Assembly (NCBI GenBank): GCA_003162395.1
Contig: PMON01000078.1
Coordinates: forward strand, 1 to 64,000
Direction: 5' to 3'
DNA from: Acidimicrobiaceae bacterium
Lineage (GTDB): Bacteria > Actinomycetota > Acidimicrobiia > Acidimicrobiales > RAAP-2
Length of the DNA: 64,000 bases
The position numbers and the translations under genes were made by a program. Under the pieces are notes generated by a model. That model was not told where the DNA came from, did no database searches, and saw only the letters and a program-made list of their open reading frames with translations. Each line of letters opens with the position of its first letter. Within the stretch, counting starts at the first letter, position 1. Below, piece after piece: positions 2,996 through 24,516 of the stretch.

Positions 2996-3026
2996 GTGGG
3001 CGCTGAGGGACAAAACTCGAACCCCC
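2996..3026. repeat. Left att copy: gtgggcgctgagggaCAAActcgaaccccc
   Basis: 15-bp identity to the tRNA-Val 3' end followed by a 4-nt insertion and 11 further matching bases (ctcgaaccccc). Confidence 0.8.
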
Positions 3027-3144: not shown

Positions 3145-3384
3145 CTACTTCGCCTCCAGTGCGATGAGTCGCTCCTTGGTGTCATTGAGCTCCCCGGACT
3201 GCTCGGTCACGACGGCCCTGATTACGTGAACGTCGTCTTTCAAGGTAGACATGTTGGTGGAGAGAGTGCCGACGTCTTGCTTGAGGGTGGTTACGTCTTC
3301 AGCCATGCCGGAAACGAGCTCCGTAACGGCATCGAACTTGGAGTGCATGTCCTCCAGCAAGACCTCTAAGTGATTCTTCTCCAT
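3145..3384 (-). CDS. Small coiled-coil protein
   Basis: 79 aa; heptad-like LKQDVGTLSTNMSTLKDDVHVIRAVVTEQSGELNDTKERLIALEAK. Confidence 0.6.
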   Translation of the reverse strand: MEKNHLEVLLEDMHSKFDAVTELVSGMAEDVTTLKQDVGTLSTNMSTLKDDVHVIRAVVTEQSGELNDTKERLIALEAK

Positions 3385-3441
3385 GTCAGTTTGATTGTCC
3401 GGCGCAACGGGAAAAGAGTCAATACTTGAAGTTCAACCCAC

Positions 3442-3675
3442 CTAGTCCCCGTCAGCTCTGGTCAGTTCCTGCTTGAGAGCATCAAGACGCTCAATTGCAG
3501 TGTTTACAAATTTCAAACCACACCCGATGCAATAGTGCCGTTCGTCTCGCCCGTCCTTTACTATGAAGACTGGTTCTCCCTTTGGTAGAGCGTGACTGCG
3601 GCTCTGCCGGCAATAATGAAGGCGACCCGATTCCGCGATCGAGACTGGCTTCAGTAGCGATTTCTCTCTACTCAC
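3442..3675 (-). CDS. Small putative zinc-ribbon protein
   Basis: Alternative GTG start overlapping the helicase stop; HYCRQSRSHALPKGEPVFIVKDGRDERHYCIGCGLKF (Cys/His pattern). Confidence 0.6.
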   Translation of the reverse strand: MSREKSLLKPVSIAESGRLHYCRQSRSHALPKGEPVFIVKDGRDERHYCIGCGLKFVNTAIERLDALKQELTRADGD

Positions 3676-5506
3676 TGAACAGTTCCCGTTCGGCAGTTTC
3701 CGCAATTTCATCTAGTCCCAGCAGAATCTGATCCAACTCTTCCTGTGAGAACTGGCTCCTACTTTTCGTGCCTTGCCCCACGCTCGAATTGGCTTGCCGA
3801 TCAATCGCACCCTTTATGACTTGGAAATTGTTGCGGCCTCGTCGGGTTCGATCCAGGTCTCTTCCCCCGTGCTGCAAGTGCCTTCGACCTAGGATCTGCC
3901 CCACTTTGGTCTTAATCCGTTCATCTAAGAGTTTCCTCTTTGCCTGTCGCGACGCCTGCCTCGTGGGCTGGATTCTTCTCAGCTGCTCGAATTGCTCACC
4001 TGTGCTGACCCCTGCCTCACGCAGTAGTCTCATCGCTTCGGCCACAAGAGGGTCGCCGCTCAGTAACTCAAGGTCCTCGAGGCGCACGTCGTCCTGCGAA
4101 GTAATTGTCGGCAGCTCTCCGGCTGGCCTCGCTGCGACATCGGAGAGTGGGTCCACGTCGTCCTCATCCAGCCCCTCAGGAATGTCTTCGTCAACCAATT
4201 GCGCCAACCAGTCACGGTCGGCCTCTGCAAACTCCTGAAAGTCCTGCCAAACTCCTGTGATGTTTGCCCCAACGTGGAACACAACTACACCTTCGTTCTC
4301 TTGATCGAAGGGATCGATTCCAGGGATCACCCTCATTATGCGGCCGACAAACTGCACGAATGGCCCCAAGTTACTGAAGATGCTGAAGACAGCAGCAACT
4401 GCAAGAAGCGGATGATCGAAACCCTCTCCGAGTTTTCTCACCTGTACGATTACGTCAAGTTCGTGTCGATCGAGCTTTGAGTGGACAAGATCATTGGCCC
4501 TACCTTCTTGCCTACTATGAACGAAGTCTGCCCTCAGACCCCGCTCCGTGTACTTCGCGACAATCTGCTTACAGTGCTCCATGTTTAGAGCGGACGCAAT
4601 GATTTTCAGCCGATTGTCGCCAGACCTCTCTCGAAGCTCCCGCAGCTTTCTAATCGAGGCGTCCGCGATTGTGGAGAGTGACTCGTCGGAACTAACTATG
4701 CTCCGACGGAAGCTTGCGTCCTCTTCTCCAAGCCTTTTTACTTCATCGAGGTCAACTTCTATTTCATGAGAGTCGTCTCCGTCGCGACGAACGTATCTCA
4801 ACGTCCGCGGATTCAGCCTATGCCCGCTGATTCGCTTGACATAACCGTTGCGAACGGCTTCCCGAATGGGGTAGTTGTAAATGATCTCCCCTGCCATGAG
4901 TCGGCCGTCAGCTCTAGATGGAGTCCCACTGACGTTAATGATGCGTGCTCGAGGGAACTTGGCCCTCAGGGTATCCCAGCTCTCAGCAACGTTGTGATGG
5001 CCCTCGTCAAACATTATGAGATCAAAAAAGTCTTCGTCGAGTTGTGAAAGCCACTTGTTATTGTCCCGCTGCAATTGCTGGATATTTGTTACGACAATGT
5101 CTGCTGACTCGAGATCGGATAAGTTGGTACTAGTACCTCGGATCTCTGCTAGTTCCGGGAAGATATCTCCGTCTAGGACTCCACGCTTTTCGTAGAAGAA
5201 CCTGTCGCTACTAGGAGTTAGGTCAGCAACCAACTGCCCAGTGATCCCAACGTTGGGAGCCACTAGCAGCGCACGCTTGGCCCCCACAGCAAATGGCGCC
5301 AGTGCAAGCAATCCTGATTTTCCACAGCCCACGGGAAGTACGAGACCTACTTCACGAGCAGGCTCCTCGCTCGCAAAGTGTTCAGATATCTTCTGAAACG
5401 CCTCTGCCTGGGGCACACGTAGAGCAGGGTTACCTGCAATTGATGGGTTGAGTAGTGCAAATTGGTCTGCTTTCAAGTCGCTCCTCTGCCACATCGCAAT
5501 GCCCAA
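3668..5506 (-). CDS. SF2 DEAD/DEAH-type helicase
   Basis: Walker A-like PVGCGKSGLLAL, motif II DLIMFDEGHHN, motif III VSGTPSR, motif VI QFVGRIMRV. Confidence 0.88.
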   Translation of the reverse strand: MGIAMWQRSDLKADQFALLNPSIAGNPALRVPQAEAFQKISEHFASEEPAREVGLVLPVGCGKSGLLALAPFAVGAKRALLVAPNVGITGQLVADLTPSSDRFFYEKRGVLDGDIFPELAEIRGTSTNLSDLESADIVVTNIQQLQRDNNKWLSQLDEDFFDLIMFDEGHHNVAESWDTLRAKFPRARIINVSGTPSRADGRLMAGEIIYNYPIREAVRNGYVKRISGHRLNPRTLRYVRRDGDDSHEIEVDLDEVKRLGEEDASFRRSIVSSDESLSTIADASIRKLRELRERSGDNRLKIIASALNMEHCKQIVAKYTERGLRADFVHSRQEGRANDLVHSKLDRHELDVIVQVRKLGEGFDHPLLAVAAVFSIFSNLGPFVQFVGRIMRVIPGIDPFDQENEGVVVFHVGANITGVWQDFQEFAEADRDWLAQLVDEDIPEGLDEDDVDPLSDVAARPAGELPTITSQDDVRLEDLELLSGDPLVAEAMRLLREAGVSTGEQFEQLRRIQPTRQASRQAKRKLLDERIKTKVGQILGRRHLQHGGRDLDRTRRGRNNFQVIKGAIDRQANSSVGQGTKSRSQFSQEELDQILLGLDEIAETAERELFSE

Positions 5507-5585
5507 TACGCTAGCGAAATTAGCACTCTCATTATCTGACTGCTAGTGAGCTTCGTCAAGCGGGGCTGAGGAACTCGAAACAGTG

Positions 5586-5599
5586 TTGCAGATATGCAA
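5586..5599. promoter_or_regulatory. Putative operator TTGCAGATATGCAA (minus strand TTGCAT-ATC-TGCAA)
   Basis: Same TTGCAT-N3-TGCAA pattern as the sites upstream of the XRE gene and transfer operon; intergenic, upstream of the SF2 helicase. Confidence 0.5.
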
Positions 5600-5658
5600 A
5601 AGAAGAAACACCATTTTCATGGTGCTCTGTCAAATCAGAGGAGCGCATGAACGCCATG

Positions 5659-6261
5659 CTATCGAAGTTCGCGTCCCTCGCCCTCGACAACGAGATCCGC
5701 ATTCCTCCAAGGCTTGACGTGAGAACTGTAGAAACTGTAGGCGGCAATCCACTTTCGAATCCACTCGTCGGGATTCTCACCGCGCGCCATTAGCCGTCCC
5801 CACGTTGTCTCTTCGCTCGCTCGGACATATACCGCGTAATCAAGCAAGCCCCGTAACTGAGGACGGAGCATGTAGACACCCTCGACGATAACCACTTCAG
5901 GCACTGGAAGTTCGATCCAACTTCCCATTCTGGCAGCGTTCCAGTCGAAACGCTGATAACGCAGATCCTTCGCCCCGCTACGGATAGATTCCAAGACTTC
6001 TGATTGCAGTCTTCGCCAATCGAAGTAGTCTTCATAGCCACCCTCGGGGCTTAGCAATGTCCTATCTTTCTCGGACATATCACTGTAGAAGTCATCCCCA
6101 TGAACGATGGCGACGGGTACACACAAATAGTCAGCCAAATCACGCGCAAGAGTTGACTTTCCAGATCCATCCGGACCATCTATACCAACGACGACTGGTC
6201 GGCTTTTCACGGCCAGAACGCTTGTCGCAATCTCAGAGACTTCAGATTCGGGGAAAGTCAT
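5659..6261 (-). CDS. P-loop kinase (uridine kinase-like)
   Basis: VVVGIDGPDGSGKSTLARDLADYL...HGDDFYSDM...VIVEGVYMLRPQL. Confidence 0.78.
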   Translation of the reverse strand: MTFPESEVSEIATSVLAVKSRPVVVGIDGPDGSGKSTLARDLADYLCVPVAIVHGDDFYSDMSEKDRTLLSPEGGYEDYFDWRRLQSEVLESIRSGAKDLRYQRFDWNAARMGSWIELPVPEVVIVEGVYMLRPQLRGLLDYAVYVRASEETTWGRLMARGENPDEWIRKWIAAYSFYSSHVKPWRNADLVVEGEGRELR

Positions 6262-6698
6262 GTACTCATTGTTTCACGACGCATTTTGCGAGTCAGAGCG
6301 GTATCGACACGTCGATCACGCTCATCATACTCCGATTCGTCCGGAATACGCAGCGGTGAGGGAAGGCGCATCCACTGTGGATTCGCCAAGAGAAGTCGAA
6401 GCGCAAGCAAGTGCACTGTTGTCACTGGAACGGCAACTTCCTCCGAGAGTGCTCGATTGGCAAGCTCGCGGGTGGCCGCTCTCGTGAAGGTTGCGATCCT
6501 TACCGCGCCGGAGGAGCGATCCGCGCTCAGAATTCGAGCAAGCTCAATCATTGTTGTGCTCTTACCTGTGCCTGGTCCAGCCTGCAGACGTGCGTTCCCG
6601 CCTTCATGGCTCAGAATCGCTCGTTGCTCGTCACTCCAATCAATCAACTTTACCTCAGGTGGTTTAGTTCTCCCTAATTGCAAATCGGTAGGCCACAA
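6258..6698 (-). CDS. UvrD/Rep-like helicase N-terminal fragment (146 aa only)
   Basis: SDEQRAILSHEGGNARLQAGPGTGKSTTMIELARIL...IATFTRAATRELANR (motifs Q, I, Ia); later helicase motifs absent. Confidence 0.7.
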   Translation of the reverse strand: MWPTDLQLGRTKPPEVKLIDWSDEQRAILSHEGGNARLQAGPGTGKSTTMIELARILSADRSSGAVRIATFTRAATRELANRALSEEVAVPVTTVHLLALRLLLANPQWMRLPSPLRIPDESEYDERDRRVDTALTRKMRRETMST

Positions 6699-6739
6699 TA
6701 ACTACTGGGCCCGGTCATCGGTGGCTGCCAGTTCCCTCG

Positions 6740-8224
6740 CTATGCCCTTGACCCTGATGGCTTATTATCACTCCGTGCATCGATCACAAGGATGCTGGCC
6801 TCATTCTCTAGCCCAAGATCCTTGAGAATCTTCGCAACTCGAACCTGGTCGCTCGCGGTATAACAGACGATTACCTTGACCGACTTCCGAGTCATATTTG
6901 CTGCTTCATAGATTGGCAGCTGCTTCACAAGGTTTCTCTTGAGACTGGTGTTACTTCCTAGCTTGAACTCGATCAGCGACTTGTCGCCGGCGCCGTAACT
7001 AATCTTGAAATCAACCGGACCGCGGCCATTATTCACTTCACGATTGACATCAAAGTCAGTCTTGCACCAGATCAGTCCAAAGAAGAGTTGCACTTCGGAT
7101 TCCTTTGAGAACGGCTGCCCGTCTCTGTTTATGAGTTTGTAGCCATCCTGATTCTCGACATACTGCTTGAACAAACCAACGCGATCGAGAGCCTCCTCAT
7201 AACTAGTCCACGGTCGCTTGTAAAAGTCAGTCCTAGACTCGAGATCCGCCAAGGTTCGCTTGAGCTGGTCCACCATGACGGACCGTGTATCCGCGACCCG
7301 GGCGGCACTGACATTGTGTGCGCGATTGCCGTCATCCTCCTTGAGCCTGATGTAATAGTCCACCAACTCAGGGAATTTTCCGATTGTGTCTTGCGCCGCT
7401 GCCCGACGGTCCTTCGCAGAAGGTCTTCGCCCCAATCTCGAACGCAAGTAGCTGTTCATTTGGGCTCTTAACTGATCATTTGGAACTGCATCAGGCAGAG
7501 AAGCGGCTTGGCGGATCATGTCCGGATAGCTGATCCATGTGTCATCTCGGGTGAGAATGTCAATCGGAGTAAGCAAGACATAGTCGTTATTACGAACTGG
7601 CAGGCAATACCGTCGCGTCTCCCACGTCTCCGTCGAGTAGTTGAATTGAGCCCGCGGAACCGATACATCTCTACGATGTTTCGGTTGAAGATGTAGCTTG
7701 GCAAATTCTTGGGTGTACTCCAACAGGAAGTGCTTTATGAGATTCGTAGTGAAGTCACTGATACTGTCGCGACCCACGCCACCTCTAATGAGACACAGCT
7801 TCTCTAGGTGGCTCCCACGAGTCACCTCTTCGTTGCCAAAATTCGCCAATATGCTTCCGAGTGACGCAATCAGCGCGGACGCGAAGTCAGCCCCAAGGGC
7901 GTGGCCGCCATTGCCGAGAACTGTGAAGCCCAACCAGTTCTGCTTGACCTCCTTGAATCGGTACCAAGCCGCAGCCAAACCCGGGTCCAGTTCATCGGAC
8001 GCCTTGTCACGTAGGAACAACAGATATTTGATGATTCCTTCATGCAGATCCTGATACTTCCGATTGTCGCTGTTGAAAAGAAGAAAGGGGTCGACAAACA
8101 GGGGCAAGTCTGACACCACGCTTATGTCGAAGGCTCCGTAGTCATCGACTAACTTTGGCTCCACCTCAAAGTGTTGAGAGAAGTAGAGATCCATTATGGA
8201 CATCTCGACGGGTTCGCAGACCAC
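6740..8224 (-). CDS. Large uncharacterised protein with C-terminal PD-(D/E)XK nuclease-like motif
   Basis: C-terminal GPVDFKISYGAGDKSLIEFKLGSNTSLKRNLVKQLPIYEAAN (D...ExK); true start may be 8203 or 8194. Confidence 0.65.
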   Translation of the reverse strand: MVCEPVEMSIMDLYFSQHFEVEPKLVDDYGAFDISVVSDLPLFVDPFLLFNSDNRKYQDLHEGIIKYLLFLRDKASDELDPGLAAAWYRFKEVKQNWLGFTVLGNGGHALGADFASALIASLGSILANFGNEEVTRGSHLEKLCLIRGGVGRDSISDFTTNLIKHFLLEYTQEFAKLHLQPKHRRDVSVPRAQFNYSTETWETRRYCLPVRNNDYVLLTPIDILTRDDTWISYPDMIRQAASLPDAVPNDQLRAQMNSYLRSRLGRRPSAKDRRAAAQDTIGKFPELVDYYIRLKEDDGNRAHNVSAARVADTRSVMVDQLKRTLADLESRTDFYKRPWTSYEEALDRVGLFKQYVENQDGYKLINRDGQPFSKESEVQLFFGLIWCKTDFDVNREVNNGRGPVDFKISYGAGDKSLIEFKLGSNTSLKRNLVKQLPIYEAANMTRKSVKVIVCYTASDQVRVAKILKDLGLENEASILVIDARSDNKPSGSRA

Positions 8225-8321: not shown

Positions 8322-11252
8322 TCAAGAGAGGTTCCATCTGTCTGGACTCGCCTTTGCGAAGTCACTTATACCGATTGCCGCGAAATGCTTCTTGCCGCAG
8401 TTGACCTTCGCGGCTTCACTCGGGCGCAACAGATTGTCTTGCATGGTGCTCTTTGTCTCACGGATCATGTAGATCCTGTCCTGGCCCTCTTCCTGTTTGA
8501 TGATTGCCCAGTCCGGGTTGTAGTCGCCTACCGGGGTCGGCACTCTGAACCTGGGCGGCAACTTCATGAACAATTTGATGTCCTCGCGAGAGTCGAGCAG
8601 CTCCGCGAACTGTCTCTCGACGTCGGAGTCGTACACCACATAGTCAAAGTCAGTCTTCTGCTCGTTCTTAACCTTGTACATCTGGTCGATGAATCGGTCC
8701 CGCTCATCAAGGCCATCCTTCTGGAGCTCGCGCAACTCATAAAGGCTGCCTGCGATTTGTTCGTACTGAATGCCCTCGACAACCGAGGCTGCGAGAGTTG
8801 TCAGGATGCCTCGTTTGACCAGCTGAATGAAGTCATTCGGATTGTGCAGGAAATCACCGAGCCTGTCGCTCTGTATCAGAACATCTACGAGTGTCTTCCG
8901 AGTCAGGGAGGTCGCCTCTTGAAGTTCGGTGAGGATGTCAGGCATGTCGAAGGAGTCACTGAGGCCGGTGGACCGCGTTCCAAGTTCCTCTCCGCGTGCT
9001 CCACCTCGCATGATCTTCACACCCGCGCGAGTGATTTGGATCCTCAGAGGCTCGATTGTCTCTGCGGACTTGATGGCTTGGACCGAGTCACGGATGATGT
9101 CGTCTCGGTCAACTCGCACCCGATATGTCGTGCGTCGGCTGATGCGACTCCAGAACTCTACGAACTCGGGGCTCGTGTACAACTCCTTGTTCAACTTCCT
9201 GGGAGTGCGTTGGCGTGCCGTCTTGACGAAATGTTCGATTTTGCACTTATCAATGATGCTGATGATGTCTACTTCGTATCCCTCGAATTCTTGAGGAAGA
9301 CTCAGGGTGAATCCGATCTGATCTGGTACAAACGTCACAAGGACGCGGCCGTCGGCATCTAAGAATCCCGCGAGTCTGAGATGATCCCAAATCTGCTCCG
9401 ACCTCCGGTATCCAAGAAGCACCTCACGGTCATTCTCAAGATGCGCAAGTTTTGCAAACTCTCCCCGGCGAACAAAGCCGATACTTATTCCTGCTTTGAC
9501 GTAGTCTTCCTGCAAGCCTTTCGCGAATTCACGGTATGACTCATTCGCAATGACGGTCAGTTGGGCAATGCCCCTGTCGTTTACGCGTTCACCATCCTGA
9601 TCGACGGGGAGCCGTAAGCCCCGTCCAATCGTCTGCCGTCGTTCGAGCGCCTCCCCCATCTCTCGCAGTGCGCAGATCTGAAAGACGTTCGGATTGTCCC
9701 AACCTTCACGCAAGGCCGAATGACTGAAGATGAAACGCACTGGCTCTTTGTTGTCGAGCAAGCGAGCCTTGGCACGCATAATGAGGTCGTATGCGTCGTC
9801 GTCGCGCGAACTACCACGCTCGGTACTGTCAACATAGTGACTCTTACCCCTAGATTTCATCTCTGCGAAGTAAGCGCGGCGAAGCGCCTGTGGGTCCTCA
9901 GGAAGGAGTGATCTGTAGCGCTCCGATTTATCTCGTTCCTCGACAAACAGCTCATCGAACCATTGGGCGAACTTGCCATCAATCGTACTGTCATCTTCCG
10001 CGTAGCTCAGATAATTCGCGACCCGATCGATGAAGAAGAGGCTAAGCACCTTGATGCCCTTGCTCCGAAGTAGCACCTCCTTTCGTAGGTGTTCTTTGAT
10101 CGTTTCGCGAATCATTTCCCGATAGATAATGTCCGTACTGCCACCAATGGACTCTCCAAGCTGAAGAACTCCGCCATTGGTCAACTCTATGAACGCTGGT
10201 TCGAGACTCATCTCGTTGATCCGCCAGTTATTAGCGTAGGCGCTGTTGTTCGTCGCATCAGCCAAGTCCTTGTGCTGTGGAACGCTCACGAGCTTTCGTT
10301 CGAGCGAGCCGTCGGCCTTGCGGCAGACAAGTTCCAACTTCGCACGCCATGGATCACGTTGAACTTGGATCAGTTTGATGTACGGCTTGGCTTCCGCTCC
10401 TTCTTGGTGCACATCTGCCACGACAATTTGTTTGACGAGCCCAAGATCATGGGCGTCGATGGGATCAAGTCTGTATACGACATTTCTCTGCCGACGGTGT
10501 GTGGCACTGTAGCGAAGCGTGCAAAGTGGATTAAGTTCGCTTATCGCGCTTTGCGAAAGCTCCGATTCCATGTTCTGTGGCTCGTCCATGATGACTACCG
10601 GCCTGGTTGCACTAAGGTAGTCGATCGGACGTAGCCCATTGAGTTTGTCTCGGTACTGGTGAATGATGCGGGTACTCTTGTCGCCGCGGATTGCATCGAT
10701 CGTCACCACCATGATCTGAACCGTCGTGGATGTCGCGAACGGCTGGACCTCCTCTGCGGTCTTCCCACTGTAAATCGAGGCGTCGAACGGGATCGAGTAC
10801 AACTTCTTAAAGTGGTCTCGCATCAGATTGATGCTGGTTGTTACGCCTTCCTTAATGGCGGTGCTCGGAACCAGAATCACGAACTTAGTGAAGTTGTATC
10901 GCTTTCTCAACTCGAAGATCGTTCGCAGATAGACATAGGTCTTGCCAGTTCCAGTCTCCATTTCAACGTCAAAATCGAGGGAATCGTTTGCCAGCGATTC
11001 GCGCACCTCGAGCCCGTTCCGGTCCTGAATTCGCTGGAGATTGCTAAGAATCGCGGGGTCATCGAGGAGGAGATTGTTCCCGACGGCTCCAATTTCCAAC
11101 GTCAACAGCTGCGGCCCTGAGTCCTCTGTGTGATGATTCCGAAGGGCCGTGACGAGCCGCTCAGCGTCATTCGGTTGACCCTCAAAGAGGTCTACGACAG
11201 AACTTATGGCGTCGAGCTGGAACGGCTGATTTGGATCGAACTTGAACTCCAT
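8322..11252 (-). CDS. res: Type III restriction enzyme Res subunit (helicase-nuclease)
   Basis: FDVEMETGTGKTYVYLRTIFEL, VVIMDEPQNM, ALREGWDNPNVFQ, RRQTIGRGLRLPVDQDG, C-terminal YNPDWAIIKQEEGQDRIYMIRETKST; TGATG overlap with mod. Confidence 0.93.
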   Translation of the reverse strand: MEFKFDPNQPFQLDAISSVVDLFEGQPNDAERLVTALRNHHTEDSGPQLLTLEIGAVGNNLLLDDPAILSNLQRIQDRNGLEVRESLANDSLDFDVEMETGTGKTYVYLRTIFELRKRYNFTKFVILVPSTAIKEGVTTSINLMRDHFKKLYSIPFDASIYSGKTAEEVQPFATSTTVQIMVVTIDAIRGDKSTRIIHQYRDKLNGLRPIDYLSATRPVVIMDEPQNMESELSQSAISELNPLCTLRYSATHRRQRNVVYRLDPIDAHDLGLVKQIVVADVHQEGAEAKPYIKLIQVQRDPWRAKLELVCRKADGSLERKLVSVPQHKDLADATNNSAYANNWRINEMSLEPAFIELTNGGVLQLGESIGGSTDIIYREMIRETIKEHLRKEVLLRSKGIKVLSLFFIDRVANYLSYAEDDSTIDGKFAQWFDELFVEERDKSERYRSLLPEDPQALRRAYFAEMKSRGKSHYVDSTERGSSRDDDAYDLIMRAKARLLDNKEPVRFIFSHSALREGWDNPNVFQICALREMGEALERRQTIGRGLRLPVDQDGERVNDRGIAQLTVIANESYREFAKGLQEDYVKAGISIGFVRRGEFAKLAHLENDREVLLGYRRSEQIWDHLRLAGFLDADGRVLVTFVPDQIGFTLSLPQEFEGYEVDIISIIDKCKIEHFVKTARQRTPRKLNKELYTSPEFVEFWSRISRRTTYRVRVDRDDIIRDSVQAIKSAETIEPLRIQITRAGVKIMRGGARGEELGTRSTGLSDSFDMPDILTELQEATSLTRKTLVDVLIQSDRLGDFLHNPNDFIQLVKRGILTTLAASVVEGIQYEQIAGSLYELRELQKDGLDERDRFIDQMYKVKNEQKTDFDYVVYDSDVERQFAELLDSREDIKLFMKLPPRFRVPTPVGDYNPDWAIIKQEEGQDRIYMIRETKSTMQDNLLRPSEAAKVNCGKKHFAAIGISDFAKASPDRWNLS

Positions 11253-13231
11253 CAAGCCGTCCACAGCTCGACGGCTTTGGTCTTGCAGAGTTGTACCAAG
11301 TTGGTCTTGAGCTCGTCATCACCTTGAAACGCATCCTCAAGGATTACGATCTTTCCTGGCTTAGCATCGACAAGAGTACGCAGTTGCTCAAGCGTTGGCT
11401 TTACCTGCTCTGCGAGATAAGCGAGGAGCACGTTGTCTCCGACAGAGTATACATTCAGACCTGCGATGTCGACGACCGAGATCAGTTCAGTCAGCGAATG
11501 ACCCAGTTTAAGGAGCAACTCAGTCAGGAGTTCGTCTGCCGATGCTGATTCCTCATTTCCGTCACGTAATTCGAGAAGACGTTGCTTCAAATCGCCTTCT
11601 TCGATGTCGCTCGAAACCTTCCACTTAGGGAAATTGGTGTCAACGAGTTTGTACGTGCGATAACCGACGTCGAGTGGTCGCTCCCGAGAGGTCAAGTTCG
11701 ATTGAAAACTCTTGGCGACGTGGTTACCTGCAAGATCTAGGCGCCTCCTTGCGATGTCAGCAATTGTCCGGAATCCAGCCTTGCTCGCTTCGGAGTCGTC
11801 CGGCACTGGTTCAGGTAACTGGACCTGGACACACTGACGGCTTCCGCCATCTTCGGCGTTCAACTGCATGACCGCGTGCGCTGTCGTACCCGAGCCAGCG
11901 AAAAAGTCCATGACAAGTGAATCTGAGTGAGTTGCGATCGAACAGAAGAGTTTGATCAGGTCGACCGGTTTGGGAAAATCAAATAGCTTTGGATCGAGTT
12001 CAATCGCAGCGATGTCCTTTGAGCCAGCGGTTGTGCTGATATCCATCACCAGATCTTTTACTGATGTCGAGTCGACATCTCTCACCTTGGTGAATACCTT
12101 GTAGCCCTGAGGTCCTTCGACAAATTCAAGGTCGTATGACTCTGACTCAACCTTCTTCGCACTCCAACGGAATGCGTGATACTTATTGACGCCGTTGTTG
12201 TTCTGTTTTGGCTCGATCTTGACGTACCCCTCATGTAGATGCTCCTTTGACACCGGTTCAGTGCGAACGTCCTGGGTCGTGGGATTGAAGTAGATGTCGT
12301 AGACAAGATTGGCTCGCGTTACTTCGTTGAATGCAGAGTTGGTGTTGTACAACTCATTCTTCAGAACGTAAGGCCCGCGTTCGTCATGTTGCGCGGTGTA
12401 GTTGAAGCCCTTGTAGACCGTCGGCATGAGTGCCTTCAGTGCGGTCGCAGATGTACGAAAGTCTCCGATCTCGTCAATCTTGCGGGCGTAACAAAGTACA
12501 TATTCCTTTGTGCCGACTGCCCCTTCACTCGAGATCTGACGGCCCTTGAGGTTGCTTACCCACACGAAAGTGTTTAGGTAGTTACTCTCACTGAACACGA
12601 GATCACACAACTTCTTCAGATTGTCCAACTCGTGATCGTCGATGCTTATGAAGATGACACCGTCATCGGTGAGCAGATTGCGTGCGAGCTTCAACCGGGG
12701 GTACATCATATTTAGCCAATTACTGTGGAAGCGACCCTCTGTCTCGCTGTTTGTGCGAAGCGCGCGACGTTCTTCGTCCACTTGACGCGTGAACTCAAGG
12801 TAACTCTGCAATCCCTCCTGATAATTGTCAGGGTAGATGAAGTCCTTACCTGTGTTATAGGGCGGATCAATATATATCATTTTGATCTGGTTGTGATATC
12901 GCTTCTGAAGGATCTTGAGCACTTCCAGATTGTCACCTTCGATGAATACGTTTTGGGTGGTATTCCAATCTTTGCTCTCTTCCTTGGCTGGCCGCAGCGT
13001 TGCAGTCGTCGGTTCCTGCGCTGAACGCAAGGCAAGGCCCTTGCCTGGCCAAAACAATCCGAATCTCTCGCTGCCGTCTCCTCCGTAGTCTTCGCCGAGG
13101 AGTTCCTTGAGCTTGGCAACATCCACCTTGCCATCAGCGATCACTTCTGGGACTAGTTCCTCTAGCTGGCGAGCGAGCTCGCTGCGAAGGTTTGGACTAA
13201 CTCTTGGCACTTGCTGGGCATCGTCGGTCAT
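11252..13231 (-). CDS. mod: Type III DNA methyltransferase Mod subunit
   Basis: NVFIEGDNLEVLKILQKRYHNQIKMIYIDPPYNTGKDFIYPDN...DFFAGSGTTAHAVMQLN. Confidence 0.94.
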   Translation of the reverse strand: MTDDAQQVPRVSPNLRSELARQLEELVPEVIADGKVDVAKLKELLGEDYGGDGSERFGLFWPGKGLALRSAQEPTTATLRPAKEESKDWNTTQNVFIEGDNLEVLKILQKRYHNQIKMIYIDPPYNTGKDFIYPDNYQEGLQSYLEFTRQVDEERRALRTNSETEGRFHSNWLNMMYPRLKLARNLLTDDGVIFISIDDHELDNLKKLCDLVFSESNYLNTFVWVSNLKGRQISSEGAVGTKEYVLCYARKIDEIGDFRTSATALKALMPTVYKGFNYTAQHDERGPYVLKNELYNTNSAFNEVTRANLVYDIYFNPTTQDVRTEPVSKEHLHEGYVKIEPKQNNNGVNKYHAFRWSAKKVESESYDLEFVEGPQGYKVFTKVRDVDSTSVKDLVMDISTTAGSKDIAAIELDPKLFDFPKPVDLIKLFCSIATHSDSLVMDFFAGSGTTAHAVMQLNAEDGGSRQCVQVQLPEPVPDDSEASKAGFRTIADIARRRLDLAGNHVAKSFQSNLTSRERPLDVGYRTYKLVDTNFPKWKVSSDIEEGDLKQRLLELRDGNEESASADELLTELLLKLGHSLTELISVVDIAGLNVYSVGDNVLLAYLAEQVKPTLEQLRTLVDAKPGKIVILEDAFQGDDELKTNLVQLCKTKAVELWTA

Positions 13232-13413
13232 TCAGTTGTCCCTCTTATGCATCTCATTCATGATCCGTTCCACTGAATCATACCCAAACATATGTTCGCT
13301 GCCTAGTCCTTGACCCATCGTTGCACCTTGCCAATGCGTTCGCGAGGTGAGCGAAGCGTGTCGAGATGTACGCCGGGCGGTTGCTTCAGTCAGCAGCCGA
13401 CCCGCCAACTCTC

Positions 13414-16784: not shown

Positions 16785-16934
16785 ATGTCTAAGCAACTAC
16801 GCGCCACTGTCGTTCGACGTCGGCCATTGCCGATCGACGAATTCGTCAAGCTGCTCCTCGAGCAGGTCCGAGCCAACCAAGCGCAAGCACATAAGGAGGA
16901 AGAGACCAACGAAGACGAACGAGGTGCTGCATGA
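16785..16934 (+). CDS. 49-aa small protein preceding the ATPase
   Basis: RBS aaagggggaa; MSKQLRATVVRRRPLPIDEFVKLLLEQVRANQAQAHKEEETNEDERGAA; ATGA overlap with 16931. Confidence 0.55.
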   Translation: MSKQLRATVVRRRPLPIDEFVKLLLEQVRANQAQAHKEEETNEDERGAA

Positions 16935-19183
16935 ATGGCGAGCTCTCGATTCTGTTTGTCGTCGCACTTCTCGGCGCAGCATTCGTCCCAATGAGTCGCA
17001 TGGTTGATCAGCGCCGACTCGATGCTTCTCGGCAGGGCTACGAGATCACGTTTCCGAAGGATGTGGCGTTTGAAGACGTCGTGAAATTCTGTCGTTCGCT
17101 TGTGATATTGCGTCGCTCCACGAGCCTGTTGGCAGGCGGGCGACCATCTGTCGTGTTCGAGTGCCATGCCAAACATGAGCGGATTGCCCATCGCTTGTGG
17201 CTCCCGGCCATCCGAGCTAGCGAAATCCTCCTTCAGCTGCACGCCTCGGTTCCGGATCTCGTAATAGAGCCAGTCACAGGTGCGACTCGCGTAGGGGCTG
17301 CTGTGTCGCTTCGGCTGACCTCCACCACAGCCATGCTCCGGACCGATCAACCCTCCCCCGCGTCGGCTTCTCTCCTGGCGGCCCTGCTCCCTCTCAGTCG
17401 CGGGGAGTCCGTCGTGGTGCAGTGGGTCGTTTCTGCAAAGGCGGACTGGCGCATGGACGACGCAACCTCCGAAGCGTCTAGCGCAACGACGGTTGCACTC
17501 CTCCCGTCGCTGCTGCGGAGCATCGGCGTTTCCCCCTCCGCGACGGCATCTCCGAAGGACCTTAGGGACAAGACATCTGAGCCGCCCTTCTCAGTGTCGC
17601 TGCGAATTGGCGCACAGGCAGGAAATCAACGACGTGCCGGTGAACTCGTACGACGGCTGACTTCGGTCTTACACGGGGTCGAACGACCCGGCCAGCACTT
17701 CCGTCGAACCTGGGCTTCCGATACCACGGTCGCGAAGGCAATCGAAGGCCGCACCACCAACACAGTCGCACCGACGTCGACCCTCAATGCCAAGGAGCTA
17801 GCGACCGTCATCGCATGGCCCATCGACTCTCCTCAGGTGCAGGGCCTCAACGTGCAGCGGAGTCGTCGCATGACGGCTCCCGATCAGCTACCAGAGAACG
17901 GGCGAGTCTTCGGAACTGGCATCGATAGGCGGGGTCCACGGCAGCTCGCACACTCTGCATCGGACAGCCTCCACCACACCCTTTGCTGCGGTCCAACCGG
18001 TGTCGGAAAGTCGACGTTGCTCGCGAATCTTGCATTGCAGGACATACGGGCCGGCCGATCCGTCATCGTGGTTGATCCCAAGCGCCAACTCGTCGAATCC
18101 ATCGCAGATTCGATACCTCAAGAGCGAACTCGGGACGTGATTCTGATGGACCTCTCCGACACGGAGTACCCCGTGCCGTTATCACTTTTTGACTCCGTGG
18201 GAACACCCGAACGAGTCGCCGATGATGTCGTCTCAATCTTCTTGCGCCGCTACGGAGCGGCCTTAGGTCCTCGTTCGACCGACCTGCTTCACGCCAGTGT
18301 GCTCACGCTGGCACAAGTGCCGGGGATGACCTTGGCAGAGCTGCCCGCACTGATCGGTGACGCCAGTTTTAGAAGGAAGGTGCTGGCACAGATTTCGGAC
18401 CGGCTTGGAGTCGAACCATTCTGGAGCGCCTTCGACTCGATGAGTGCTGGCGAGCAGAGTGCCGTAATCGCACCCCTCGGCAACAAGCTCGGGCCCGTGT
18501 TGCGCCGCGTCTCGATTCGAAATTCGATCGGCCAGTTCTCATCGACGTGGTCCATGGGCGACGTGCTCGATCACCAGAAGATCTTGCTCGTCTGCCTCGA
18601 TGGCGGCGAACTTGGAGAGGAGACGGCAGGGATCTTCGGCAGCCTGCTGGTAGCTCGGCTGTGGCAGGAGATCCGACGCCGTGCCATCCGACTTCCTGTC
18701 GGTGTCTACCTCGATGAGTACCAGAGCCTGATCGGGACCACCGTCGACCTAGGAGAAGTCCTGGCGCAAGCCCGCGGCTTCGGGATTGGGGTCACGCTCG
18801 GATTCCAACACGCCGGACAACTGGGACCGCAGCTCAAGGCGTCCACGTTCGCGAATGCCAGAACAAAGGTCGTTTTCCAGACTTCGGCGGACGACGCCGG
18901 TCAGATGGCTCGTCAGCTTGGAGGTGGTCTTACAGCAGACGACCTGATGGGGCTGTCCGCCCATCACGCATACCTCGCCGCCTGCGTTGGATCGGAGGTC
19001 CTGCCGCCAGCAAGCCTCGCCACTCTCCCGCCGTCCACACCGCTAGGGACTTTCGAGCGAGTGCGAGAAGCCAGTCGGTCTCAGTACGCCCGCGACCGAG
19101 CCGCCGTCGAGGATGGGATCGCCGCGCGACGTGAACCTGCTGCTGGAGAAGGCTCGGTCGGCAGGCGAAGGAGGGCGTCGTGA
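16931..19183 (+). CDS. VirD4/TraG/TraD-like type IV coupling ATPase
   Basis: CGPTGVGKSTLLANLALQDIRAGRSVIVVDPKRQLVESIADSIP ... PVGVYLDEYQSLIG ... GVTLGFQHAGQL; N-terminal TM. Confidence 0.85.
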   Translation: MNGELSILFVVALLGAAFVPMSRMVDQRRLDASRQGYEITFPKDVAFEDVVKFCRSLVILRRSTSLLAGGRPSVVFECHAKHERIAHRLWLPAIRASEILLQLHASVPDLVIEPVTGATRVGAAVSLRLTSTTAMLRTDQPSPASASLLAALLPLSRGESVVVQWVVSAKADWRMDDATSEASSATTVALLPSLLRSIGVSPSATASPKDLRDKTSEPPFSVSLRIGAQAGNQRRAGELVRRLTSVLHGVERPGQHFRRTWASDTTVAKAIEGRTTNTVAPTSTLNAKELATVIAWPIDSPQVQGLNVQRSRRMTAPDQLPENGRVFGTGIDRRGPRQLAHSASDSLHHTLCCGPTGVGKSTLLANLALQDIRAGRSVIVVDPKRQLVESIADSIPQERTRDVILMDLSDTEYPVPLSLFDSVGTPERVADDVVSIFLRRYGAALGPRSTDLLHASVLTLAQVPGMTLAELPALIGDASFRRKVLAQISDRLGVEPFWSAFDSMSAGEQSAVIAPLGNKLGPVLRRVSIRNSIGQFSSTWSMGDVLDHQKILLVCLDGGELGEETAGIFGSLLVARLWQEIRRRAIRLPVGVYLDEYQSLIGTTVDLGEVLAQARGFGIGVTLGFQHAGQLGPQLKASTFANARTKVVFQTSADDAGQMARQLGGGLTADDLMGLSAHHAYLAACVGSEVLPPASLATLPPSTPLGTFERVREASRSQYARDRAAVEDGIAARREPAAGEGSVGRRRRAS

Positions 19184-19295
19184 GATGTCCGGTCGCTCGT
19201 CCCATCGCGTTGTTCATTCAGGCGCGCAGCCCACGGCCCTACGGGCACGTCGCCGGAGGTGCTGCAACGAATGTCGGTTGTCATGGAGTCTTGTC

Positions 19296-20105
19296 ATGAC
19301 GCCCGCCCGTACCACCGCGACCCGGCTGGCAGACATCGACCGGCAACTCACCGAGCGTGACCGCGAAGTGATCGCCCTCCTGTCGCGCGTCCGGATTGCG
19401 ACGACCAAGCAGGTTGAGCGTGTGTGCTTCGTTGAGAGCACCGCCGGTGCCAATGCTCGTGCGTCACGGCGCGTGCTCTCCAAGCTCGAGCAACTGGGCC
19501 TCGCCGCCCGCCTCAGCCGACGCGTTGGCGGCGTGCGGGCCGGTTCGGCCGGCCTGACTTGGAGCCTTGGGGTCACGGGGCAACACTTTGCCAATCGCCT
19601 CGGACCGGCTGGTGCGGACAGGCGCTCGCCTTGGACTCCCTCGCAGCCCTACCTCGCCCACCATGTTGCCGTCACAGACGTATTTGTCCGACTCCGGGAA
19701 GCCCAAGATCGTGGCGATGGCGAACTCCTTGCCTTCGACACGGAACCCGCCTGCTGGCGTCGCTTCATCGGACCGGGCTCCCAAGTCCTCACACTGAAGC
19801 CGGACGCCTACGTCGTTACGGCCACTGCCGCCTTTGAAGACTCAGCATTCCTGGAGATCGACCTTGGATCTGAGAGCCCATCCGTCCTGCGACGCAAGAT
19901 TGCGGCGTACCTTCTCTATCGGCGGACCGGACGAGAAGAGCGAGAACACGGCGTTTTTCCGTTCGTCGTGTTCATAGTTCCGGGCGAACGTCGGGCAGCC
20001 GCAGTCGCCCAGGTGCTGGCTCCGCTTCCAACGTCGGACCTAGCGCTCTTTCGCGTGGTGCTGTCGACGGAATCGAGCGCTGCCCTCATGGGAGGCACGC
20101 CATGA
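19296..20105 (+). CDS. Replication-relaxation family protein
   Basis: RLADIDRQLTERDREVIALLSRVRIATTKQVERVCF...SRRVLSKLEQLGLAARLSRRVGG winged-helix pattern; follows the coupling ATPase. Confidence 0.72.
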   Translation: MTPARTTATRLADIDRQLTERDREVIALLSRVRIATTKQVERVCFVESTAGANARASRRVLSKLEQLGLAARLSRRVGGVRAGSAGLTWSLGVTGQHFANRLGPAGADRRSPWTPSQPYLAHHVAVTDVFVRLREAQDRGDGELLAFDTEPACWRRFIGPGSQVLTLKPDAYVVTATAAFEDSAFLEIDLGSESPSVLRRKIAAYLLYRRTGREEREHGVFPFVVFIVPGERRAAAVAQVLAPLPTSDLALFRVVLSTESSAALMGGTP

Positions 20106-21061
20106 GAGATATGCCGCGAAACACGATTCTAGTTGGAGATGCTTACGAGACCCTGACGGGCCTTCCGGCCGAATCAGTGCACTGTGTGATTTCGTCGCCG
20201 CCGTTCTTCGCGCTACGCGACTACGGGGTGACCGGACAGATTGGACTCGAAGGTTCAGTCGACCAGTGGGTCGAGCGGCTTCACTCAGTAATGGTGGAGT
20301 TGCACCGAGTACTCACACCAACCGGAAGCCTGTGGTTGGACTTCGGCGACGCCTACTCGAGAAACGTCCGCTCGGGTGCCCCATCCAAGAGTCTGTACCT
20401 CTCGGGCGAACGCCTTGCACTACGAATGATTGGCGACGGCTGGATCTTGCGCAATCGCATCTGTTGGCTCAAGACGAACCCGATGCCGCAGGCTGTCACT
20501 GACAGGTTGTCGAACACCTACGACCTCGTGTTCCACTTCGTCAGGGAGAATCGCTACTTCTATGACGTTGACTCACTTCGCCTTCCCTACGGCGAGGGAT
20601 CGCTCGTTGGCAAGGACCCCGGCGATTCATGGCGATTGCCAGCAGCGAACTATCGCGGACCCCATCACGCGACGTTTCCAGAGCAGCTTGTCGAGCGTCC
20701 CCTCCTGGCCACTTGCCCACTGCGAGTCTGCTCTGCTTGCAACCTCCCATGGAAACGGGAACCGGCCAAGATCATCACTGTCGGCAAGAAAGTGGCGCCC
20801 GGGAACGACCAATACGTCCGGCGCTACCGAGGCAGCTGGCGAACACTCCGTCGACCCGGACCGCTGGCAGCGGGCTGTGTGTGCGGCGCCCCTACGCAAC
20901 CGGGGCTCGTTCTCGATCCATTCTTCGGAACCGGAACGGTAGGAGTCGCGGCCGAACGGCTTGGAAGAGATTGGTGTGGCATCGAGCTGAGTAGCACCTA
21001 CGCGAGCCTCGCCTACGAGCGGCTTGGTCGCGCCGGACCCGAACAAGCGGTTGCGGCATGA
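20102..21061 (+). CDS. Orphan site-specific DNA methyltransferase
   Basis: VHCVISSPPFFALRDYG catalytic motif and LVLDPFFGTGTVGVAAERLGRDWCGIEL SAM motif; Cys cluster CPLRVCSACNLPW...CVCG. Confidence 0.9.
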   Translation: MRDMPRNTILVGDAYETLTGLPAESVHCVISSPPFFALRDYGVTGQIGLEGSVDQWVERLHSVMVELHRVLTPTGSLWLDFGDAYSRNVRSGAPSKSLYLSGERLALRMIGDGWILRNRICWLKTNPMPQAVTDRLSNTYDLVFHFVRENRYFYDVDSLRLPYGEGSLVGKDPGDSWRLPAANYRGPHHATFPEQLVERPLLATCPLRVCSACNLPWKREPAKIITVGKKVAPGNDQYVRRYRGSWRTLRRPGPLAAGCVCGAPTQPGLVLDPFFGTGTVGVAAERLGRDWCGIELSSTYASLAYERLGRAGPEQAVAA

Positions 21062-22156: not shown

Positions 22157-22789
22157 ATGTCAACCAAAACTTACAACCCGAGTGTCGTGACGCAACTGCG
22201 ATCCCTCATGCCCTCCCGTCATCTATCAGTACCCGAAGCGCTTCGGATCGCAGAGCTACAGGCGGGACGCCTTCTCTCACTCGCTGGAATTGTCGAAGCA
22301 CCGATTCCAGAGGATCTGATCTCCGCCCTCCCGAGAGTCGAAGTACGGCGCCTTAGCCCGCTTCCCGTCTCCGGATATGCGGATTGGCGTTCCGGCCAGT
22401 GGATCATCGTCGTCAATGGCTCCGAGCCCTTGGTTCGCCAGCGCTTCAGTCTGATGCATGAGTTCAAGCATGTTCTAGATCATCCGTTCGTACAGTCCGC
22501 CTATTCCGCAGATCGAACTCAGCCAAGCAGATTCGCCGAACAGGTTTGCGATTCGTTTGCCGCGAGCGTGCTCATGCCGAGGGCGTGGGTGAAAGCCGTC
22601 TTCTGCAACGAGGGAGTCCAAGACTTGGCGATTCTCGCTCGTCGCTTCGGAGTTTCGCAGATGGCCATGCGAGTGCGCCTACTGCAACTGGGGTTGGCCG
22701 AACCCGAACCGAGGTGCTCGCGCTACCGCCGCGCAAGTGGGTCTCTAGAGCTGATGCCCGCATTCGAACCGAAAGGAATCTCTGCATGA
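22157..22789 (+). CDS. ImmA/IrrE-type metallopeptidase
   Basis: HExxH motif RFSLMHEFKHVLDHP, ...FAEQVCDSFAASVLMPRAWVKAVF... typical of the family. Confidence 0.88.
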   Translation: MSTKTYNPSVVTQLRSLMPSRHLSVPEALRIAELQAGRLLSLAGIVEAPIPEDLISALPRVEVRRLSPLPVSGYADWRSGQWIIVVNGSEPLVRQRFSLMHEFKHVLDHPFVQSAYSADRTQPSRFAEQVCDSFAASVLMPRAWVKAVFCNEGVQDLAILARRFGVSQMAMRVRLLQLGLAEPEPRCSRYRRASGSLELMPAFEPKGISA

Positions 22790-24483
22790 CAGAAAGCCAC
22801 AGCGATTCGGCAGTTGCAAGCAACGAAGCCACTCCAGGTCGAGCGGTCATCTATCTGCGGGTCTCCACGAAGGAGCAGTCTGAACGCGACGGTGACCCGG
22901 AGGGCTACTCGATACCCGGTCAGCGAGAGGCATGTCTGCGCAAGGCCGAGTCACTCGGCGCGGTCGTGGTGGATGAGTACGTAGATCGCGGCGAGTCTGC
23001 TCGCAGTGCCAACCGGCCACAGCTGCAACGGATGCTCCAGCGCTTCGAATCGGAGCGAGATATCGACATGCTCATCGTGCACAAGGTGGATCGTCTTGCA
23101 CGAAACCGGGCCGACGACGTTCAGATCACGCTCGCATTGGAAGCATCAGGAGTCAGGTTGGTGTCGGCTTCCGAAGCCATCGACAACACGCCGTCGGGCT
23201 TGCTGCTTCACGGGATCATGGCGTCGATCGCGGAGTTCTATTCGCGGAACCTCGCGACCGAGGTCAAGAAGGGTGCGCTTCAGAAGGTCAAGACCGGCGG
23301 CACCGTTGGGATCGCTCCCACCGGCTATCTCAACGTCCGGAATCCTGACGGCGGGAAGCTCAAGGCGAGCATCGCGGTCGACCCAGTTAGGGCTCCGCTC
23401 ATCAAGTGGGCGTTTGAGGCATTCGCTACCGGCGACTATACCCTCCGCGGCATGACCGATCAGTTGGCGGAATTGGGACTCACCTGTCGCCCAACCGGAA
23501 AGTATCCCGAGGCTCCGCTTGCCCTCTCAAAGGTCAACAAGATCCTGAGGAATCCGTACTACGTCGGGGTGGTCCGATACATGGGTGTGGAATATCAGGG
23601 CAAGCACGAACCTTTGATCTCCCAGGAGGTCTTCGACGCAGTCCAGATGGTCCTAGATAGCCGCGTGCGGGCCGGAGAGAAGCAGAGGGTCCATCGCCAC
23701 TACCTGAAAGGCACCCTCTACTGCAGGCGCTGTGAGTCGCGTCTAACGATCTCCTATGCCAAGGGACGTCGGGGGGGCATCTACCCGTACTTTCACTGCC
23801 TTGGGCGGCAGCGCCGCAACGGGTGTGACCTTCCATACCTTTCAGTCGATCTTGTTGAGAAGTTTGTCGAGCGGATATATGCGGCCCTCCAACTGTCACC
23901 GGATGAGGCTGATGCAATCGAGAAGGGTCTGATTCGAGAGCTCAGGGCCTTGAAGAAGGCAACCGATCCAGAGCGAAAGCAACTTGCGGCGAAGATCGCT
24001 CAGTTGGATCGAGAGCGTCACACGTGGGCCGAGAAATCAATGAGCGGAGCAGTTCCGGATGATATCAGTCGCGAGAATCAGCAACTGCTTGCGAAGCAAC
24101 TCAGTAATGCACGCAGGAGACTGAAGGGCCTCGAAATACCGTTCGATGAGGTTGAGGAGACCCTCAGACAGTCAATCGAGTTGGCAAAGGTCTGTTGCAG
24201 TTCGTATCTCGATGCAGATCCGCGCATGAGACGCAAGTGGAACCACGTCTTCTTCGAAATGGTGCGGATGGACGAAAAGGAAGTCGGCAGTGCCAAGTTC
24301 ACTCCAGCAGTCGGAACTCTTTATCCACAGACGAGATTCGAACTTGAGTCCGACGAACCGGAAGTGACCTTTGAATACGGCAGAGACCAAGAAGACCCCC
24401 GCCTCGTTTCTGTTGGCGGGGGTTCGAGTGAGAGTTTGATGGTGGGCGCTGAGGGACTCGAACCCCCGACCTGCTGGTTGTAA
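22786..24483 (+). CDS. Large serine recombinase/integrase
   Basis: RAVIYLRVSTKEQSERDGDPEGYSIPGQREACLRKAE, recombinase domain, zinc ribbon YCRRCESRLTISY...FHCLGRQRRNGCD, coiled coil; ATGA overlap with protease; stop codon lies inside tRNA-Val. Confidence 0.95.
   Translation: MTESHSDSAVASNEATPGRAVIYLRVSTKEQSERDGDPEGYSIPGQREACLRKAESLGAVVVDEYVDRGESARSANRPQLQRMLQRFESERDIDMLIVHKVDRLARNRADDVQITLALEASGVRLVSASEAIDNTPSGLLLHGIMASIAEFYSRNLATEVKKGALQKVKTGGTVGIAPTGYLNVRNPDGGKLKASIAVDPVRAPLIKWAFEAFATGDYTLRGMTDQLAELGLTCRPTGKYPEAPLALSKVNKILRNPYYVGVVRYMGVEYQGKHEPLISQEVFDAVQMVLDSRVRAGEKQRVHRHYLKGTLYCRRCESRLTISYAKGRRGGIYPYFHCLGRQRRNGCDLPYLSVDLVEKFVERIYAALQLSPDEADAIEKGLIRELRALKKATDPERKQLAAKIAQLDRERHTWAEKSMSGAVPDDISRENQQLLAKQLSNARRRLKGLEIPFDEVEETLRQSIELAKVCCSSYLDADPRMRRKWNHVFFEMVRMDEKEVGSAKFTPAVGTLYPQTRFELESDEPEVTFEYGRDQEDPRLVSVGGGSSESLMVGAEGLEPPTCWL
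24395..24423 (-). terminator. Probable tRNA-Val terminator embedded in the recombinase 3' coding region
   Basis: ACCCCCGCC-N11-GGCGGGGGT perfect 9-bp stem about 17 bp past the tRNA 3' end. Confidence 0.6.
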
Positions 24484-24516
24484 ACCAGCTGCTCTAACCA
24501 ACTGAGCTAAGCGCCC
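24440..24516 (-). tRNA. tRNA-Val(UAC), CCA encoded
   Basis: Reverse complement GGGCGCTTAGCTCAGTTGGTTAGAGCAGCTGGTTTACAACCAGCAGGTCGGGGGTTCGAGTCCCTCAGCGCCCACCA folds as a cloverleaf; loop TTTACAA gives anticodon TAC. Confidence 0.95.
24442..24467. repeat. Right att copy within tRNA-Val: gtgggcgctgagggactcgaaccccc
   Basis: Matches 2996-3026 apart from the 4-nt insertion in the left copy. Confidence 0.8.

Follow-up and report, generated by a model that had tools for sequence, protein, structure and literature searches.

The closest described relatives of the genes considered here are found among helicase-containing repair, restriction, and defence systems, and among candidate defence nucleases. 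In RadD (YejH), an SF2 protein of DNA repair, the zinc ribbons are part of the helicase chain itself and come immediately behind the second RecA-like domain (PMC9049331). The translocases of type I and type III restriction systems, as well as XPB, are built on an SF2 core with a ResIII domain, and Hachiman, Gabija, and other helicase-based defence systems combine a helicase with a small or second subunit in mobile DNA. The PDC profiles in PADLOC describe candidates, not validated systems, that were identified through guilt by embedding (PMC12988326); for one of these, PDC-M36, we found no published test or paper in the open-access literature.

The locus described here shares features with each of these but departs from them in several respects. 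Its SF2 helicase has the core of the restriction translocases, but has neither an endonuclease domain nor its own methylase or specificity partner; and it resembles Hachiman and Gabija in pairing a helicase with a small protein in mobile DNA, but has neither a HamA-type nor a GajA-type partner, and its PADLOC matches are weak or absent. We think it reasonably probable that the cargo at this locus is best explained as at least three independent units (a type III R-M system, a nuclease, and a helicase/zinc-finger pair) together with debris, with the roles proposed below.

An integrative element at a tRNA-Val gene

The window, which is the whole stretch of 64,000 nucleotides of Acidimicrobiaceae DNA that was analysed, contains an integrative element of 21.4 kb with the cargo genes at its left end (Table 1). 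Direct repeats bound the element at a tRNA-Val gene, it encodes a large serine recombinase, and a genome of the same genus has the corresponding empty site, in which window positions 29134-24494 are followed, no more than 7 bp on, by 3011-2864 (contig G001:C149); the mobile element recognised in an earlier sequence-only reading is thus confirmed. The cargo has a G+C content of 51–54%, lower than the 63.6% of the left flank and the 69.2% of the right. A coupling protein and a relaxase are also encoded, and the element is probably mobilizable.

Table 1. Coordinates of features in the integrative element and its target site
Feature	Coordinates	Strand	Remarks
attL core	2996..3011	.	GTGGGCGCTGAGGGAC; 16-bp direct repeat of 24442-24457; junction contiguous in congener G001
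Coiled-coil ORF, 79 aa, adjoining attL	3145..3384	-	Sub-threshold coiled-coil matches only
Zinc-finger-like helicase partner, 77 aa	3442..3675	-	C-x5-H ... YC-x2-C; GTG start inside helicase stop
SF2 helicase	3668..5506	-	RadD/XPB/HsdR-like core, helical C-terminal domain, no nuclease domain
PRK/uridine-kinase-like P-loop kinase	5659..6261	-	PRK-type nucleoside kinase matches
5′ remnant of UvrD/SF1 helicase gene	6258..6698	-	Walker A present; all from motif II on missing
PDC-M36A-related nuclease (P0006)	6740..8224	-	N-terminal domain of unknown fold; C-terminal PD-(D/E)XK: E375, D405, E419-x-K421, Q435
Type III R-M res (helicase + endonuclease domain)	8322..11264	-	PADLOC REase_III 2.5e-272; RE_endonuc 4.9e-34
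Type III R-M mod (N6/N4 adenine methylase)	11252..13231	-	PADLOC MTase_III 2.1e-170; N6_N4_Mtase 4.4e-31
TrwB-like coupling protein	16931-19183	+	TrwB_AAD_bind 4.4e-9
Replic_Relax relaxase	19113-20105	+	Replic_Relax 3.9e-36
Large serine recombinase (integrase)	22546..24483	+	Resolvase 3.2e-33, Recombinase 8.9e-12, Zn_ribbon_recom 5.2e-9
attR core	24442..24457	.	GTGGGCGCTGAGGGAC; in 3′ part of tRNA-Val
tRNA-Val	24440-24516	-	Holds attR core

Three further observations concern the element and its surroundings. The recombinase reading frame, whose real start is probably downstream of the listed TTG, extends beyond the attR core into the tRNA-Val gene, so that its last residues are encoded by host DNA once the element is integrated and would differ in the excised circle. 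A second DNA methylase gene (20102-21061; N6_N4_Mtase 1e-35) lies beside the relaxase gene, apart from the type III mod. Adjoining attL on the outside is an ArsP-type permease gene (1547-2785) whose product has 81% identity to one encoded in a different genus of this family and only about 47% to other relatives, and the left flank itself may therefore be a recent transfer.

Organization of the left-end cargo

All six open reading frames are present. They follow one another on the minus strand, and a complete type III R-M pair lies upstream of them; the order is mod, res, nuclease, UvrD fragment, kinase, SF2 helicase, zinc finger, and coiled coil. The Mod protein has DPPY and AdoMet motifs, Res has both helicase and endonuclease domains, and the two genes are adjacent. 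The UvrD fragment and the kinase gene overlap in an ATGA (6261-6258), and the helicase gene stops with TAG (3670-3668) within the first codons of the zinc-finger gene, which probably starts with GTG AGT AGA at 3675; because this GTG aligns with the start of the zinc-finger homologues, 3675-3442 (77 aa) is preferable to 3711-3442 as the extent of the gene.

The sequence-only reading had drawn attention to the common strand and tight junctions of these genes and had suspected a defence module that is not a named system. Both junctions are as it described, the combination indeed corresponds to no named system, and a defence flavour can be upheld for the nuclease, whose family is located in defence islands. 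The domain calls also stand, with the PD-(D/E)XK nuclease recognisable by its motif set and core topology, the SF2 helicase by its ResIII domain and motifs, and the small protein by its zinc-binding pattern. The helicase and the 'zinc ribbon', listed as separate items, are both there but together make one conserved pair, and the 'UvrD N-terminus' does have UvrD homology but belongs to a remnant, with about 105 residues aligned to a family about 630 residues long.

What did not survive is the suggestion that the six genes belong together. A single new multi-gene defence system downstream of mod and res would accord with the shared strand, the tight junctions, and the location in a mobile element, but the families are unlinked elsewhere. 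A genome-wide scan for relatives of the nuclease yielded 30 loci, in Actinomycetota, Pseudomonadota, Bacteroidota, Bacillota, Acidobacteriota, and candidate phyla, and in none of the 30, searched up to 10 kb on each side, did we find relatives of mod, res, the helicase, the UvrD fragment, the kinase, the zinc finger, or the coiled coil. A full-length helicase relative (35–38%) is present in only two of 26 host genomes, where it lies on a different contig or in a different place from the nuclease gene; the co-occurrence of the 6740-8224 and 3668-5506 families, which had been named as a check, thus amounts to none of 30 loci and to two genomes without linkage. Plasmids and islands carry the helicase/zinc-finger pair in the absence of the nuclease, and plasmids carry it without the other genes; one member of the supposed system, the UvrD gene, is moreover broken. 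We therefore reject a single six-gene system, which seems very improbable on this evidence.

A smaller unit, made up of the UvrD fragment and the kinase, might be suspected from their ATGA overlap. Homology in the fragment stops at about residue 129 of 146. The fragment can be aligned to the initial 130 residues of a helicase, 633 residues long, from a related genome, and neither the later helicase motifs nor the remaining sequence turn up within the first 26 kb of the window. We conclude from these alignments that the gene is a truncated remnant. Among 100 related genomes, a single further one encodes a close relative of the fragment, and there it is a full-length helicase; none of seven kinase relatives has the fragment nearby. 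A functional two-gene unit is thus hardly to be expected, and we reject it, as kinase relatives in related genomes occur without the fragment. Two other assignments of the fragment were considered and discarded: it is truncated before motif II and is not a functional helicase, and it is not the GajB of a Gabija system, as the match is N-terminal only, the protein is not full-length, and there is no GajA. The kinase itself is probably metabolic and housekeeping-like, judging by its matches. The coiled-coil frame matched no family above threshold in profile searches.

A nuclease related to PDC-M36A

The PADLOC profile PDC-M36A matches the N-terminal part of P0006 (5.4e-18, 63 bits), although the match is partial, covering only residues 32-242 of the protein and positions 23-227 of the 457 in the profile. 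The same profile is matched by all 25 aligned members of the nuclease family, and the neighbour of one member, in a Streptomyces locus (L008), is itself a PDC-M36A protein of nearly full length. None of the proteins in the window matches a further PDC-M36 model, nor did we recognise a gene that could be the partner in a two-gene M36 system. By these sequence comparisons the nuclease is a diverged relative of the unvalidated candidate PDC-M36A. We note that in the Streptomyces locus two PDC-M36-type genes lie tail to tail, 9884-11461 (+) and 11556-13256 (-), one from each subfamily.

The catalytic motif set sits in the C-terminal 120 residues, and E375, D405, E419, and Q435 are invariant in the 25 sequences, with K421 nearly so. 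In an AlphaFold2 model (mean pLDDT 80.6) these residues, in the order E, D, E-x-K, Q, fall on the alpha-beta-beta-beta-alpha-beta arrangement of PD-(D/E)XK enzymes. The motif set and core topology are shared with NucS/EndoMS, PspGI, and Cdn1, which are the top Foldseek matches, but these matches are individually weak (best E 0.099, to 2vld), with no significant whole-chain fold match, as is that to the PDDEXK_9 profile (0.078), and it is on motifs and topology that the domain call is based. Neither a full PDB profile search nor Foldseek gave a match to a solved structure for the N-terminal 300 residues, the full PDB profile search with the whole nuclease gave no relative, and there are no viral homologues in phage records or viral contigs. 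The start is probably at the ATG of residue 8.

A C-terminal tail, IDARxDNKPSASKA (residues 480-494 in the window protein), is present in most of the nuclease relatives and is nearly invariant across phyla; it was not seen in other neighbouring reading frames. Its conservation suggests a docking or regulatory peptide. We also note that a gene for a DUF5677 protein directly follows the nuclease gene in L004 (11455-13041) and L025 (11470-13044), the two closest relatives of this kind.

The nuclease family is a solo gene located in defence islands. Its members are found beside DrmA and DrmB of DISARM (L011), GajA and GajB of Gabija (L016), and ZorD of Zorya (L014); HsdR is a neighbour in L006 and L031, and type I R-M is represented three times overall among the neighbours, all counts of R-M neighbours given here being descriptive. 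From its sequence and setting the nuclease is most likely a stand-alone, island-borne, single-gene defence effector, in which an N-terminal domain may act as sensor or regulator of the C-terminal PD-(D/E)XK domain, and which would cut nucleic acid upon recognising an invader or the failure of a neighbouring R-M system.

A conserved helicase and zinc-finger gene pair

The helicase has intact SF2 motifs (VGCGKSG, DEGHH, SGTP, and QFVGRIMR), a domain search identifies ResIII, and its closest folds are RadD (E 1.8e-15), XPB, SauUSI, and HsdR (3h1t). It is not RadD itself, as the match to the RadD NCBIfam equivalog (2.8e-8) scores 32.5 bits against a cut-off of 720. Moreover, whereas RadD has its zinc ribbons in its own chain, the window helicase contains only two cysteines, neither of them in a pair, so that any zinc element must come from a separate small protein. 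By analogy rather than by sequence match, the small partner may be that element, supplied in trans. The partners have a C-x5-H or C-x2-C motif followed by (Y/F)C-x2-C, but the second pair is lost in five divergent partners, and zinc binding is thus not universal. PADLOC names neither gene, viral homologues of the helicase are generic SF2 matches only, and we found nothing on the pair in the open-access literature.

A tblastn search with the small protein returned 24 plasmid records, all of which have a helicase relative, adjacent wherever coordinates were compared. With a profile made from ten partners, the zinc-finger gene is found immediately downstream of the helicase gene in 21 of 23 loci, eleven of these partners not having been used in the profile; the two exceptions are L041, where the locus ends at that point, and a Leptospira plasmid (L056), where an unrelated small gene takes its place. 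The helicase and zinc-finger genes are a genuinely conserved two-gene unit, which ranges from enterobacterial plasmids of 5.9 kb to a genome of the Peregrinibacteria and includes actinobacterial examples.

The helicase family is common on plasmids and rare in chromosomes. At an E-value of 1e-40 it is present in one of 397 genomes of its own phylum (the source genome itself), in one of 321 in the class of a Xanthomonas genome, and in four of 385 in the class of a Neorhizobium genome. R-M genes adjoin the pair in the window (type III), in L034 (a type III methylase), in L050 (BsuBI/PstI type), and in L051 (DpnII type), and lie further off in L053; near the closest chromosomal copy of the helicase (L076) there is an HmaA protein 4 kb away. 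In chromosomes, the genes around the divergent helicases are in many cases ordinary metabolic ones.

Two of these loci have features of their own. In L034, a Xanthomonas plasmid, the type III mod is split into two overlapping frames (9180-9926 and 9890-11398) that are unannotated in the record, possibly because of a frameshift or phase variation. On the Leptospira plasmid (L056, 4164-6890) the divergent helicase gene directly follows a caspase-family gene.

Proposed roles and alternatives

We infer from sequence all of the biological activities proposed here for the cargo, the defence role of the pair included. In the window, in L014, and in L031 (HsdR), the nuclease gene comes directly after that for a restriction nuclease; in L038 it is the last gene of a methylase-helicase-GIY-YIG operon, where it follows the GIY-YIG nuclease gene. 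This raises the possibility that the nuclease is no independent system, but a fail-safe of the adjoining R-M genes that is triggered by blocked restriction, as with PrrC or PARIS. Most relatives, however, are alone or beside Gabija or DISARM genes, and we regard such a dependent role as unlikely.

For the helicase/zinc-finger pair there is a serious rival. The pair is most likely a DNA translocase with a zinc-binding DNA-contact element contributed by the separate small protein, and, as the helicase has no nuclease of its own, it would probably remodel or displace DNA intermediates of competing replicons or phages. We tentatively suggest an unnamed two-subunit system of immunity or inter-plasmid competition, with a RadD-like translocase whose zinc ribbon is now a separate subunit, distributed over very small plasmids, integrative elements, and chromosomal islands in at least three phyla; this is a possibility to be entertained rather than a firm expectation. 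On the 5.9-kb plasmids of Klebsiella, Salmonella, and Serratia the genes form a rep-helicase-zinc finger operon in which the helicase gene overlaps the replication gene, an arrangement that suits replicon maintenance (replication restart, copy control, or recombination) as well as it does defence, and the nearest solved fold is that of a repair protein. The pair also resides, however, in an integrative element, on chromosomal islands that have no rep gene, and beside R-M modules on other plasmids, and a maintenance function is likewise conceivable without being probable.

The case shows that a neat run of same-strand genes in a mobile element is not necessarily one system. The neighbours of the nuclease family provide independent support for the PADLOC candidate PDC-M36A. 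The helicase has kept its partner of 75–90 residues all the way from 5.9-kb plasmids of Klebsiella and Salmonella to genomes of actinobacteria and Peregrinibacteria, and selection must be acting on the two as a unit; this pair, unnamed in the defence libraries searched, is the part of the cargo most worth following up. If it has an immunity or plasmid-competition function, it would be a compact and easily tested system, and one that occupies over a third of some natural plasmids.
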